Of a stretch of 32,267 nucleotides of DNA, positions 20,127 to 30,604 are shown in pieces. Below the pieces are notes generated by a model. The model saw only the letters and a program-made list of their open reading frames with translations, had not been told where the DNA came from and did not search any database. The stretch covers positions 1-32,267 of the forward strand of contig JAAYBW010000003.1 in the NCBI GenBank assembly GCA_012729975.1, written 5' to 3'. The stretch comes from Clostridiales bacterium (lineage in GTDB: Bacteria; Bacillota; Clostridia; Oscillospirales; Oscillospiraceae). The position numbers and the translations under genes were made by a program. The first letter of the stretch is position 1. The number at the start of each line of letters is the position of its first letter.

Positions 20127-22193
20127 TTATTCAGCTTCCGCAAGCGCTTTAGCTTCTTCTATTATCTTTTGCTGAACGGCAGCGGGCGTTTCTTCGTACC
20201 TGATGAACTCGAAGGAGAACGAGCCTCTTCCCTGTGTCATGGAACGAAGGTCTATGGCATAGCTGCTCATTTCGGCTGCCGGTACCTCCGCCTCTACTTC
20301 CTGGTTGCCGTCTCCCTTCGGATTCATTCCCAGAACTCTGCCGCGCCGCTTGTTAAGATCGCCGATAACGTCTCCCATGTTTATGTCGGGGATATTGACC
20401 TTAAGCGAACCGATCGGCTCCAGAATTACCGGGGAAGCCTGAGGAAGTCCGTTTTTGTAAGCCAGGTTTGCCGCTGTTTTAAATGCCATTTCGGAAGAGT
20501 CGACATCGTGATATGAGCCGTCAACCAGAGTGGCTTTCAGATATACGACAGGATAGCCCGCAAGCACACCCTTTGTCATGCTCTCTCTGATGCCCTTTTC
20601 AACGGCGGGGAAATACTGCTTGGGTACGCTGCCGCCGAAAATCTTCTCCTCGAATATAAGGTCCTCTGTTTCGGACTGCGGCTCGAATTCTATCCAAACA
20701 TCGCCGTACTGCCCGTGTCCGCCGGACTGTTTCTTATGCCGGCCCTGGATCCTGACCTTTTTGCGTATCTTTTCCCTGTAGGCCACTCTGACGGGAGAAA
20801 GTTCCACTTCCACACCGAACTTGTTTTTAAGCTTGGAACATAAAACGTCAAGATGGATATCGCCTGCGCCCGAGAGCACCATCTGATGTATCTCGGCGTT
20901 GTTCTCGACGCTGAACGTCTGATCCTCCTCTGCCAGTCTGGTGAGGCCGCCGGAAATCTTGTCTTCCTGTCCTTTGACTTTCGGGGTAACAGCCATTGAG
21001 TAGCATGGTGCATTAAACTCTATACCCGCAGCTCTGGCCACATTTTTAGGATCGCAAAGAGTATCGCCTGTCTTACTGTCCGAAAGCTTTGAAACCGCGC
21101 CTATATCTCCGCAGCCGATCTGCTTTACTTCCGTACTCTTTTTGCCCTGCATCATATAGATATGACCCATTTTTTCGCTTGAGCCGCTCCTGGGATTGAT
21201 GAGAACCATATCTGTATCGACTGTGCCGGAGAGCACCTTGAAAAATGAAAACTTGCCGTATTGGTCGGAAGTAGTTTTATAAATAAGCATGCAGGTAGGC
21301 GCGCTGCGATCACAGGGAATCGATACCTGTTCGCCCGCAGCGTTTATCCCTAACTCCGGTGTGATGTCTGCCGGAGACGGGAAAAGGTTGATCACGGTAT
21401 CAAGGAGCAGTTCTGTGCCCAGTCCGGTAAAACCGCTTCCGCAAACAACGGGCACAAGAGAAAGATCGCGGATACCCTGCTTGAGGCCTCGAATTATTTC
21501 TTCATCAGTAAACGGCTCCTCGGCGAAGAACTTTTCCATGAGCTCCTCTGAAGTCTCCGCTACATTCTCGGCCAGTACCGTGTACATCTCGTCAAGAGTT
21601 GACTGCATATCCGGCGGAATCGCTGTCTCTATGCTCTTTCCTTTTTCAATCGTATATGCCTTTCGCAGCACAACGTCGATAATGCCCTGAACCCTGCCGT
21701 CCTTCACTATGGGAAATACCAGGGGCGAGAGAGTGTGCCCGAATTTTTCTCTAAGAGCCTGAAACGTGGCGTTAAAGTCCCCGTTTTCCTCATCAATCTT
21801 GGAAATATAAAAGAGTTTCGGATGTTTTGACAGAGCCTTCCAGGCCTTTTCGGCGCCTACTCCTACCCCGCCCTTAGCCGAGCAGACAATTATTCCGGCA
21901 TCCGCAACTCTTACCGCCTGACTGACTTCACCCGCAAAGTCAAAATAACCCGGGGTGTCGATTATATTAATTTTATGACCCTTATATTCAGTAAACAGGG
22001 TGGCAGCCGAAATGGATATCTGACGCTTAATCTCCTCCGCGTCATAGTCTCCTACTGTGTTGCCGTCCGATACTCTCCCAAGTCTGTCCGATGCACCGGT
22101 AAGAAATAGCATGCTTTCCGCCAGGCTTGTCTTACCCGTGCTGCCGTGACCGAGCAGGCAGACATTGCGGATTTTGTCTGTCGTGTAGCCCAT
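20127..22193 (-). CDS. Elongation factor G-like GTPase (EF-G paralog)
   Basis: GHGSTGKTSLAESML, IDTPGYFDFAGEVSQAVRVAD, EF-G domains IV/V (RHKKQSGGHGQYGDVWIEFEP; EPIGSLKVNIPDINMGDVIGDLNKRRGRVLGM). Confidence 0.92.
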   Translation of the reverse strand: MGYTTDKIRNVCLLGHGSTGKTSLAESMLFLTGASDRLGRVSDGNTVGDYDAEEIKRQISISAATLFTEYKGHKINIIDTPGYFDFAGEVSQAVRVADAGIIVCSAKGGVGVGAEKAWKALSKHPKLFYISKIDEENGDFNATFQALREKFGHTLSPLVFPIVKDGRVQGIIDVVLRKAYTIEKGKSIETAIPPDMQSTLDEMYTVLAENVAETSEELMEKFFAEEPFTDEEIIRGLKQGIRDLSLVPVVCGSGFTGLGTELLLDTVINLFPSPADITPELGINAAGEQVSIPCDRSAPTCMLIYKTTSDQYGKFSFFKVLSGTVDTDMVLINPRSGSSEKMGHIYMMQGKKSTEVKQIGCGDIGAVSKLSDSKTGDTLCDPKNVARAAGIEFNAPCYSMAVTPKVKGQEDKISGGLTRLAEEDQTFSVENNAEIHQMVLSGAGDIHLDVLCSKLKNKFGVEVELSPVRVAYREKIRKKVRIQGRHKKQSGGHGQYGDVWIEFEPQSETEDLIFEEKIFGGSVPKQYFPAVEKGIRESMTKGVLAGYPVVYLKATLVDGSYHDVDSSEMAFKTAANLAYKNGLPQASPVILEPIGSLKVNIPDINMGDVIGDLNKRRGRVLGMNPKGDGNQEVEAEVPAAEMSSYAIDLRSMTQGRGSFSFEFIRYEETPAAVQQKIIEEAKALAEAE

Positions 22194-22318: not shown

Positions 22319-24631
22319 TCAAGTCTTGTTGAGCAGAACGACGGGTATCAGCCAGAATATATGAAATAAAAGCATATTTGCCGCACTTGCGGAAGTGAAG
22401 GCCGAATTGCGAAATACCAGCAGCAGAACAAGCAAACCCACTATGCTTCCCACAGCCGATATAAGCGTACCGAGCCTTACCTTTGATACGAGAATACGGC
22501 TTCTGGACGCTATCTCCACAAAATGTCCCAATCCCTCGCGGCTCATAAGCGCACTTGGCTTTATTCCCGTATCGCCGGAGTCCGCAGACAGGTTATATCT
22601 TGCCTCAAACGAAAGAAACTCTATGTGTTCGGTAGATACTTTAAATTTTGACCTCACCATGGTGGGCGTAATATTAAAATCCCTGACCGCGAATATCGGT
22701 CTTACCTTTGAGCGGGCAAGTGTAACAAGAGCGTTTTGTACCATGTCGACCGGCATATAATTCACGATAAATACACCGGCCAGCTCATCGTTTACGGCAG
22801 TGAATACCGCACTTTTCAGATTGAGATTCGCTGCGAGTCTTATCCCCATCAGGTTCATAAAAGCACCGGACCCTACAAGCACCTTATCTCCGTCTATTAT
22901 CGCACCGATACCGCCGCTTTCATAACACGAGAACTCGTCAACCCTGTAAATGCTGCAGGCATACTCTTTGAGCAGGTCACCGAAGACTCGTGAAAGACCG
23001 GATCCGGAGGCAAGAATCATACTTCCGGTATATGAAACTACCTTCTCGATTTTAAAATCCGAAAAGCATTTAACTCCGTTCAGTGATAGCGTACTCTCCG
23101 GAAACAGATCCGAATCCTTTATAACGATACCTATCGAGTCTTTAATTTCAACAGCGCCGCTCCATCCCGCAAGCGCCGCGCCGGAGGAAGCAAGCTTTTT
23201 GGCCGCGGAATTGAACGGAAGGTTGAAGATCATCGTGGTGGATGCTGACGCGGTTACAGCGGTCATAGCGGCAAAACAGTGGAGGAAAGCGCCTCCCGCA
23301 CCGGCAAAGACGGTATCAATCATAGCAAATATAACCGATGCTATCATCAGAAGCGGCGCAAGCTTATGGAACACATTTTCGGACATATCAAATTCCGTGC
23401 TCTTTGAAACAAAACCTCTGCTTGTGCCGTATCTTTTCGTAAGAACGGTCCCCTCATCCGCCTTTTCCCATTCGGCCGCGACAACTAACGGAAGGCTTGA
23501 AGCCGCCATCGTTTTAAATGTTGTTCTGTAAGCGCTGCGTCCGACCCGCTCACCATACATTGCGCATGTAAGAGAGAACGCGGCCGTCGCGCAGTATGGC
23601 AGACCCAGTTCGTAGTTAGAACCGGCAATAATGAATACAGCGTCCGCAACAGCGGTCAGGCAGGCAACACATGCAAGAGATCTCCCACCGGCTCTGCCGC
23701 GATACAGGTCAACGACACCCGCGATGAAAATATCAATACCCAGGAGCATAACGACAAGCAATAGAATAAGCTGCAGACCCGCAGATGTGAATTGATCGGA
23801 TATGGCTAAGCCGGAGTTGTATTCATCGGCAAAGGCAAATATCGCCATGACGAGGAATATGACGAATGCCAAAAAAGTTCTTCGCCTTAAAGATGATACT
23901 CCGGACGCGTAGACCTTCAGAGCTTCCTCATTGCTCAGTTCAGGCCGTTCTGCCGCTTTCTCCTCTTTTATAAGGCGCTGTTTATCCTTTTTTTCACGCT
24001 CTTTCCGACGCTTTTCGGCTTCGCGGGATATTACGCTTTCTACTTCCTGCGAGCTTTCGGAAATAACATCACTGCGAGCGTACTTGCCGACGCCGAAAAA
24101 CTCTTGTTCTTCATCACTCAAAGCGAGCTGCGCGGCACGATTTTCTTCCTCGCGGCGAAGCTCTTCCTCCTGCCTTAGCCGCTCAGCCCGGAGCCGGGCC
24201 TCTTTTTCGCGTTCTTCTCTGACATTCCTGTGAGCTTTCGCGCTTCCGGGCTTTTCGCCTCGAATCGGTTCTGGATTCTCCGCGGGCAAGGCTCTGGAAA
24301 TATTGCTTTCTTCGTCGGGAATAACTTTCTTACCGGTTTTTCGAGGCTTATCCTTTTGCTCTTCCTCAACTGCCTGCGGTTTTGGTATCGTTTGCGCGGG
24401 CCGCTTCGGCGCCGGTTTGTATTCCTTAACTGTTTCGGATTCGCCGTCCAACTCAATCTCTCTTGTCAACTCGGCGATTATTCTCGCCGCCTGCTCCTCA
24501 AGCTCTTCCTTGGACAGCTTCTTTTCACCGGCGATATATGCCTTACCCTTGTATTCGGCCAGAATATTTTCAAGAGTATAGACCGTCTCTTCCTCGGCGC
24601 CCATATTAAGTTTTGAGCTGTCCTCTGCCAT
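22319..24631 (-). CDS. Membrane protein with degenerate P-type ATPase-like architecture
   Basis: Charged ~230-aa N-terminal region, TM bundles, then P1B-ATPase-like order: SGAALAGWSGAVEIKDSIGIVIKDSDLFPESTL; GGIGAIIDGDKVLVGSGAFMNLMGI; ELAGVFIVNYMPVDMVQNALVTLARSKVRPIFAVRDFNITPTMVRSKFKV; C-terminal TM pair. DKTGT not present. Confidence 0.7.
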   Translation of the reverse strand: MAEDSSKLNMGAEEETVYTLENILAEYKGKAYIAGEKKLSKEELEEQAARIIAELTREIELDGESETVKEYKPAPKRPAQTIPKPQAVEEEQKDKPRKTGKKVIPDEESNISRALPAENPEPIRGEKPGSAKAHRNVREEREKEARLRAERLRQEEELRREEENRAAQLALSDEEQEFFGVGKYARSDVISESSQEVESVISREAEKRRKEREKKDKQRLIKEEKAAERPELSNEEALKVYASGVSSLRRRTFLAFVIFLVMAIFAFADEYNSGLAISDQFTSAGLQLILLLVVMLLGIDIFIAGVVDLYRGRAGGRSLACVACLTAVADAVFIIAGSNYELGLPYCATAAFSLTCAMYGERVGRSAYRTTFKTMAASSLPLVVAAEWEKADEGTVLTKRYGTSRGFVSKSTEFDMSENVFHKLAPLLMIASVIFAMIDTVFAGAGGAFLHCFAAMTAVTASASTTMIFNLPFNSAAKKLASSGAALAGWSGAVEIKDSIGIVIKDSDLFPESTLSLNGVKCFSDFKIEKVVSYTGSMILASGSGLSRVFGDLLKEYACSIYRVDEFSCYESGGIGAIIDGDKVLVGSGAFMNLMGIRLAANLNLKSAVFTAVNDELAGVFIVNYMPVDMVQNALVTLARSKVRPIFAVRDFNITPTMVRSKFKVSTEHIEFLSFEARYNLSADSGDTGIKPSALMSREGLGHFVEIASRSRILVSKVRLGTLISAVGSIVGLLVLLLVFRNSAFTSASAANMLLFHIFWLIPVVLLNKT

Positions 24632-24659: not shown

Positions 24660-25424
24660 TTATAGGGTGCTGCGCTGCCTTAGCGCTTCATAAAGGAGAA
24701 TCGCTGCGGCGGCGGATGCGTTAAGCGACGATATTTTCCCGCGCATCGGGATAGAAATAAGGAAGTCGCAGCTTTCGCTGACAAGCCTTCTCATCCCCTC
24801 TCCCTCGGAGCCTATTACTATCGCGGCAGGACCGCTTAAATCTGTTTTCCACAAATCTGTCCCGCCGCCTGCCGCTGCCCCGAATATCCATACTCCGGCT
24901 TCTTTAAGCTCTTTAATCGCAGCCGCAATATTCGCGACTCGCGCGACGGCAAGGTGCTCGGCCGCTCCCGCGGAAGTTTTGCCTACAACCGCGGTAAGTC
25001 CCGAACTTCTGCGCTTTGGTATGATAATCCCGTGTGCCCCGGATGCCTCGGCTGTTCTGATTATCGCGCCCAGGTTGTGCGGATCGGATATCTCGTCGCA
25101 TATTACTATCAGCGGGACCTCACCCCGATCCCGTGCGGTCTGCAGAATATCGCCGACCGACTCGTAAGCGCGCACGGAAGCTACCGCAATAACCCCCTGA
25201 TGCGAATGCGTGACGCTCATTGAGTCCAGCTTTCGCCTGTCGGCTTCCGATACGACCGCGCCCGCTGCGCGTGCCTTTGAGGCTATATAGCGAAGGGTAT
25301 TGTCGGTATCGCCCTTTACGATATATACTTTATCCAGGCTGCGCCCGGCTTTCAGCGCTTCCAAAACGGCATTTCTGCCTTCTATCTGACCTTCTCTGGG
25401 GTCAAATCCTTCTTTTTCATCCAT
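24660..25424 (-). CDS. rlmB: TrmH/SpoU-family RNA 2'-O-methyltransferase (RlmB-like)
   Basis: IEGRNAVLEALKAGRSLDKVYIVKG, DEISDPHNLGAIIRTAEASGAHGIIIPKRRS, IVIGSEGEGMRRLVSESCDFLISIPMRGKISSLNASAAAAILLYEA. Confidence 0.95.
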   Translation of the reverse strand: MDEKEGFDPREGQIEGRNAVLEALKAGRSLDKVYIVKGDTDNTLRYIASKARAAGAVVSEADRRKLDSMSVTHSHQGVIAVASVRAYESVGDILQTARDRGEVPLIVICDEISDPHNLGAIIRTAEASGAHGIIIPKRRSSGLTAVVGKTSAGAAEHLAVARVANIAAAIKELKEAGVWIFGAAAGGGTDLWKTDLSGPAAIVIGSEGEGMRRLVSESCDFLISIPMRGKISSLNASAAAAILLYEALRQRSTL

Positions 25425-29362: not shown

Positions 29363-29521
29363 GTTTAATCTCCACTTACATATTTATTTTTTGATTATAT
29401 CACCGTTTCAGACCGAATTCAATTAAAAACCTGCACTGCCGCGGCTGTTGCGGCTGTGTGGCGTAGCAAACCGAGGCGTTAGCGCATAGAAATGTACATA
29501 GCTGATAGTATGGAGGTTATT

Positions 29522-30604
29522 ATGGGCAAATGCATTTCTTATTACCTGGGCGCAAATACCGGAAAAGGTTTTGTGAGCGCTTTCGAGGGTTTTATCCGCA
29601 GGCCCGAGGTTAAATTCGTATATGTGCTCAAAGGCGGCCCGGGCTGCGGGAAAAGCAGCTTTATTCGCAATATTGCGCTGGCCTTGCAAGACATCGGCTG
29701 TTACGCAGAGTACATATTATGTTCCGCAGACCCGGATTCTCTTGACGGCGTTTTCTTTCCGTATCTGGGCGTGGCATATCTTGACGGAACGGCGCCGCAT
29801 GTCCTTGAACCGTCACTTGCGGAGGCAAAAGGAAATTATGTAAACCTGGGCACCTTCTGCGATACGGAGCGGATGGCTAAAATATCCGAAGAAGCGGCAC
29901 GTCTGATCGGGGAATATAAAAACAGTTATGCAAACGCTTACGAACGCCTCGGAGCCGCATGCGCAATAAAGGCGTCTGTGCGAAACGAAAGCCTTAATGC
30001 CGATATCTCAAAGCGTCTGGAGGAACGCGCTTCATCCGCCGCAAGACGCGAAATAAAACGTTTGTCAGGTCCCGGAGGACAAAAGGATGTTTTTCTGGAC
30101 TCTTTCGGGTCACAGGGATTTGTGAGCGAATGGCAGACGGCCGCAGCGTCTGCCTCCCGCATATTGCTCGCGGACAACGAACTCGGGTACGCCGACCATT
30201 ATCTGTCTTTTATCCTCGCGGAAGCTTTAAGCAGAGGCGCAAGCGTGACTGTATGCCGCGACGCGCTCTTCCCTTCCCGAATCGCTCATCTGCTGATTCC
30301 CGAGCATTCACTTGCGGTACTGTCGGAAACAAAAGACTCACCATGTCCTCTTGAAGGTGTCAGACGTGTCAGGCTTGACTGTTTGATTTCCGGCAGTGCT
30401 GTAAACAGATCTGAAAGCCGCAGCGACGCGAAGCTTGTCCGGTCTCTGCTCACATCGGCACAGAAATATTTCCGGCGCGCGAAGGAATATCACGATGAAC
30501 TGGAATATATCATAAATCCCTATGTAGATTTCGGGGGCGTATATACGCTTTCCGACGCTCACGCCGCTTTGCTTAAGGAAAAATTCAAGGAAAAAGTACG
30601 GTAA
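29522..30604 (+). CDS. P-loop ATPase, PRK06851-like
   Basis: VYVLKGGPGCGKSSFIRNIALAL (Walker A); ATG 29522 preceded by GGAGG. Confidence 0.75.
   Translation: MGKCISYYLGANTGKGFVSAFEGFIRRPEVKFVYVLKGGPGCGKSSFIRNIALALQDIGCYAEYILCSADPDSLDGVFFPYLGVAYLDGTAPHVLEPSLAEAKGNYVNLGTFCDTERMAKISEEAARLIGEYKNSYANAYERLGAACAIKASVRNESLNADISKRLEERASSAARREIKRLSGPGGQKDVFLDSFGSQGFVSEWQTAAASASRILLADNELGYADHYLSFILAEALSRGASVTVCRDALFPSRIAHLLIPEHSLAVLSETKDSPCPLEGVRRVRLDCLISGSAVNRSESRSDAKLVRSLLTSAQKYFRRAKEYHDELEYIINPYVDFGGVYTLSDAHAALLKEKFKEKVR

Follow-up and report, generated by a model that had tools for sequence, protein, structure and literature searches.

Catalytically dead relatives are well known among kinases, proteases and phosphatases. 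The Post-Albers cycle of phosphorylation and dephosphorylation is not possible in a P-type protein that lacks TGES, DKTGT and GDGxND. Human TMEM94/ERMA has a degenerate P-type fold that lacks TGES, and no ATPase activity was detected for it (PMC12134183); such a fold can thus persist without detectable ATPase activity. The status of TMEM94 is disputed, as it is named the ER Mg ATPase in the abstract of PMC13322241. A literature search that covered few subscription journals did not turn up any description of a bacterial pseudoenzyme among P-type ATPases that is conserved throughout a whole order. Here we analyze a candidate for such a protein, hereafter the pseudo-pump, encoded by a clostridial stretch of 32,267 nucleotides (the window).

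An anonymous gene homologous to P1B-type ATPases

The pseudo-pump gene is located at 22319..24631 on the minus strand, as are all the features of the protein given below. The intact 770-codon frame reported in a preliminary description of this DNA was borne out, as it is open from its ATG start with no internal stop, and all the sequence strings quoted there were found in the 770-aa translation. Searches of Pfam, NCBIfam (at cut-off) and PDB sequences with the single protein returned nothing relevant, which explains why the gene is anonymous in annotation. A weak FeoB match, located mostly on the charged tail, was discarded. In the HMM comparison suggested in the preliminary description, the Pfam E1-E2_ATPase and hydrolase models were matched by 0/48 members of the family; the NCBIfam P1B models gave weak matches in 19/48 (TIGR01525).

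The P1B-type segment order was nevertheless confirmed when alignments were used. In hhalign, the comparison with 34 aligned genuine P1B ATPases encoded by the same genomes gave an E-value of 4.6e-36 over 552 columns, compared to 6.5e-10 with non-P1B (mostly P2-type) pumps and a best value of 0.03 among 20 block-shuffled decoys. A profile built from 48 core sequences of the family (A2) matched 25 of all PDB chains, every one a P-type ATPase, with Legionella CopA (LpCopA) at the top (4.8e-31). This P1B-like core spans residues 215–770 (22322..23989) and has eight predicted transmembrane helices. Structure prediction pointed to the same fold with high confidence: the AlphaFold model of the core has a mean pLDDT of 93.1 and a pTM of 0.89, and Foldseek placed the copper ATPase 4bbj (CopA) first at 4e-17, followed by more P1B pumps. 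The global TM-scores are moderate (0.4–0.6), which is to be expected when domains have been lost. In a tree, the family forms a monophyletic group that is placed with the P1B pumps when P2 pumps are the outgroup (support 0.66, long stem). Homology to P1B pumps is therefore well supported. It should be noted that the host genome encodes five ordinary DKTGT-bearing P-type ATPases in addition to the pseudo-pump, which is thus not the pump of this organism.

Deletion and replacement of the catalytic motifs

Both the alignment and the model indicate that the eight-helix membrane domain, the Rossmann core of the P domain and the N domain are kept. The alignment also contains two clean deletions: the first removes the actuator domain, located between M2 and M3, and the second the P-domain GDGxND block. 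Where the actuator domain would be, the hhalign gap, DSSP and the alignment columns revealed a two-stranded beta-hairpin (residues 382–401, 23429..23488), and TGES is absent; this loss had been missed in the first reading of the sequence. The GDGxND block, of about 35 aa, was deleted rather than mutated. The string SGDTGIKPSALMS, previously proposed as a degenerate GDGxND, was thus misassigned, as its SALMS aligns with the strand that follows the block.

The loss of CPC was upheld. By alignment and model, this P1B site falls in ASASTTMIF (residues 461–469, 23225..23251), which contains neither Cys nor Pro and hence no metal-binding Cys, and the M4 helix is still broken there in the model. Across the family, this position is mostly of the A-P-F or A-S-L type. 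A passive channel or carrier, in which the membrane domain would move a substrate without ATP hydrolysis, would fit the eight helices and the M4 break that are all kept in the model. We consider this improbable, as the CPC metal ligands are lost, M4 is variable and no conserved Cys site was seen at M4 among 50 homologues.

Where VDKTGTLT is expected, hhalign and the alignment columns place DSDLFP (residues 506–511, 23099..23116), as first described, and the phospho-acceptor-equivalent aspartate itself, D506, is kept in 45/50 homologues. DKTGT is absent from the position in 50/50 homologues. The second aspartate of the DxD, D508, is present in 39/50, with a glutamate in 8/50. The LFP that follows is nearly fixed. 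DKTG strings do occur in two homologues, located in the tail and not at the phosphorylation site. The change from DKTGT to DxD could recreate the nucleophile and acid-base pair of a HAD-type phosphatase or phosphotransferase, with D506 and D508 in these roles. However, the Ser/Thr of motif II and the residues of motifs III and IV have no conserved counterpart, the block that holds motif IV is the deleted GDGxND, and the near invariance of LFP also argues against such an activity, which we regard as very improbable.

The string GIGAIIDGDKVLVGSGAFM, described from the start as a retained nucleotide-domain-like segment, corresponds by alignment to the N domain. The N-domain-like region (residues about 528–612, 22796..23050; hhalign, model and columns) lacks the HP motif and includes two glycines, G574 and G587, found in 49/50 and 50/50 homologues, respectively. 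At the TGD position, in FAVRDF, hhalign and the columns place RDFN (residues 650–653, 22673..22684), with D651 aligned with the TGD aspartate and kept in 47/50. These two glycines and D506/D651 are among the most conserved residues of the family, and it is for this reason that a nucleotide or metabolite sensor ranks as the main rival to a scaffold. In such a sensor, the N domain would bind nucleotide, or the D506/D651 pocket phosphate or metal, and the tail would signal without hydrolysis. TMEM94 offers a parallel, as it binds AMPPCP at micromolar affinity with undetectable ATPase activity (PMC12134183). In the pseudo-pump, however, the HP motif of the P1B nucleotide site is lost and the Mg-ligating GDGxND is deleted, and we hold the sensor to be possible but on balance unlikely. 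Since a pure scaffold would not need D506 and D651, their conservation suggests that some ligand binding may remain.

The loss of the catalytic motifs across the family is well supported. Neither of the outcomes that would have refuted the preliminary description was observed, as a P-type fold was predicted and no homologue had DKTGT at the position. With TGES, DKTGT and GDGxND lost, the pump cycle cannot run according to established P-type biochemistry, and the original proposal of a transport-dead protein, as judged from sequence, is strongly supported.

A single-copy core gene under purifying selection

The host order of the family is probably the GTDB Oscillospirales. Using the single sequence as a query, the pseudo-pump was found in 56/60 related genomes and in all 43 of those with at least 90% completeness and low contamination; a search of genome contigs with the single protein returned two relatives only. 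The A2 profile detected it in 144/148 genomes of the order that are at least 95% complete, practically always as one copy and with a match spanning most or all of the core. Outside the order, a full-length match was found in 0/187 sampled genomes of the same class. The best matches there (E about 1e-33 or weaker) covered the M3/M4-P-N part only and lay in frames with the size of ordinary P1B pumps. The pseudo-pump is a core gene across the order, and its order-wide retention is well supported. Four near-complete genomes of the order had no detected pseudo-pump (G298, G308, G315 and G321, two of them in one genus), which may reflect loss or missing assembly.

A close pair with unsaturated divergence (L131/L279) gave a dN of 0.0068, a dS of 0.267 and a dN/dS of 0.026, indicating purifying selection; the remaining pairs gave dN/dS values of 0.02–0.12, with dS higher or saturated. 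Flags for in-frame stops were raised in six genomes of the order, five of which correspond to the normal end stop only. The sixth is genuine: L066 (G057:C38) is the sole family member in which a true premature stop was seen, a TGA within the membrane domain, which may be a sequencing error, a split gene or decay.

Viewed in isolation, a gene that has lost every motif would suggest a normal P1B pump that has recently decayed or was misassembled. This explanation is refuted by the 144/148 genomes, the dN/dS of 0.026 and the 50/50 homologues free of DKTGT at the position, and is given practically no weight. The preliminary description had excluded decay on the basis of the open frame, a view that the single copies, full-length frames and purifying selection sustain.

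Genomic context

A gene for an rlmB-like SpoU 2'-O-methyltransferase (24660..25424, minus strand; Pfam and synteny) lies 28 bp upstream of the pseudo-pump gene. An rlmB-like gene is found immediately upstream on the same strand in 47/50 pseudo-pump loci, and two of the three loci without this neighbor are cut by a contig end. Judging from the spacing, the two genes are probably cotranscribed. The rlmB link is as old as the pseudo-pump family and is by itself uninformative on function. Downstream, an EF-G-like GTPase gene (20127..22193, minus strand; Pfam and synteny) is conserved in 18/39 neighborhoods compared. Elsewhere in the window, 29492–30604 encodes a 370-aa protein with a P-loop-like GGPGCGKSSF and no Pfam match at 1e-3.

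A tail motif shared with LspA

The presence of a charged extension of about 230 aa at the N-terminus was also confirmed. It is an E/K/R-rich cytosolic segment (residues 1–230, 23942..24631; composition and full-length model), mostly disordered, in which two long helices are predicted at residues 131–169 and 194–225. Relatives have it as well, but its length is far from conserved: the tail before the core is highly variable and reaches 579 aa. Within the disordered region, pattern scans and the model identified a short linear motif, YTLENILAEYK (residues 18–28, 24548..24580), predicted to form a short helix. Similar motifs occur near the N-terminus through much of the order and are less clear in the most distant members.

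We scanned 40–60 genomes with back-translated patterns of this motif, using the reversed pattern as a control. Most matches fell at the pseudo-pump N-terminus or at the C-termini of LspA (signal peptidase II), and a few isolated ones were in other proteins; no match was obtained with the reversed pattern. A long-tailed LspA ending in the motif was found in seven related genomes of different genera, an example of such a terminus being EYSLEDILAEFRDI. The LspA proteins with long disordered tails are those of L164:642-1880, L165:904-1860, L166:1853-2869, L237-L239 and L243; their tails end in a YSLEDILAEF-like motif, and several also share DPFAEWE. The LspA of the host genome itself (186 aa frame) has no long tail, and the LspA link is therefore not universal. 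When further carriers of the motif were sought in f23, another family of the order, mainly the pseudo-pump family itself was returned. Given what is known of how P1B pumps and LspA are oriented in the membrane, the pseudo-pump N-terminus and the LspA C-terminus are both expected to be cytosolic. The simplest reading of these sequences would be a common docking partner of the two tails.

Proposed function and comparison with known systems

Taken together, we propose with a probability of about 0.6 that the pseudo-pump is a descendant of, or sister to, the P1B-type metal-transporting ATPases and a pseudoenzyme kept as a transport-dead membrane scaffold or receptor. Its nature as a pseudo-pump is well supported, whereas we infer the scaffold or receptor function, for which the tail motif shared with LspA is the only new hint. 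The dead pump would work as a membrane anchor whose flexible N-terminal tail offers the short helical YTLENILAEYK-like motif for docking of a cytosolic partner, and the frozen N and P domains would form an output or sensing surface. Long-tailed LspA carries this peptide at its C-terminus as well, which suggests that the partner is shared between membrane proteins. More speculatively, and in our view doubtfully, an ancient bacterial P1B pump may have been converted once, at the base of the order, to a core membrane hub in which the dead pump body serves as a platform and the tail docks the cytosolic partner of the LspA tail. If this were true, a pump-shaped scaffold would be tied to lipoprotein or envelope biogenesis. 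In any case, the pseudo-pump is a near-universal single-copy core gene of one of the major groups of gut Clostridia, with a well-predicted fold and no Pfam P-type match, and it makes the use of a pump scaffold without pumping testable.

P1B-type ATPases (LpCopA 4bbj/3rfu, CopA, ZntA and ATP7B) are the best sequence and fold matches of the pseudo-pump and share its eight-helix topology, M4 break and order of P core and N domain. In contrast to them, the pseudo-pump has lost the A domain with TGES, DKTGT, GDGxND, CPC and HP and carries a long, disordered tail that bears a docking-like motif. The ordinary P-type ATPases of the same genomes (P1B and P2) are homologous to it; they keep DKTGT and nearly all keep GDGxND. 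The nearest precedent is human TMEM94, likened here to the pseudo-pump from the literature and not by alignment; TMEM94 differs in being eukaryotic, in having ten transmembrane helices and in keeping an A-like domain.
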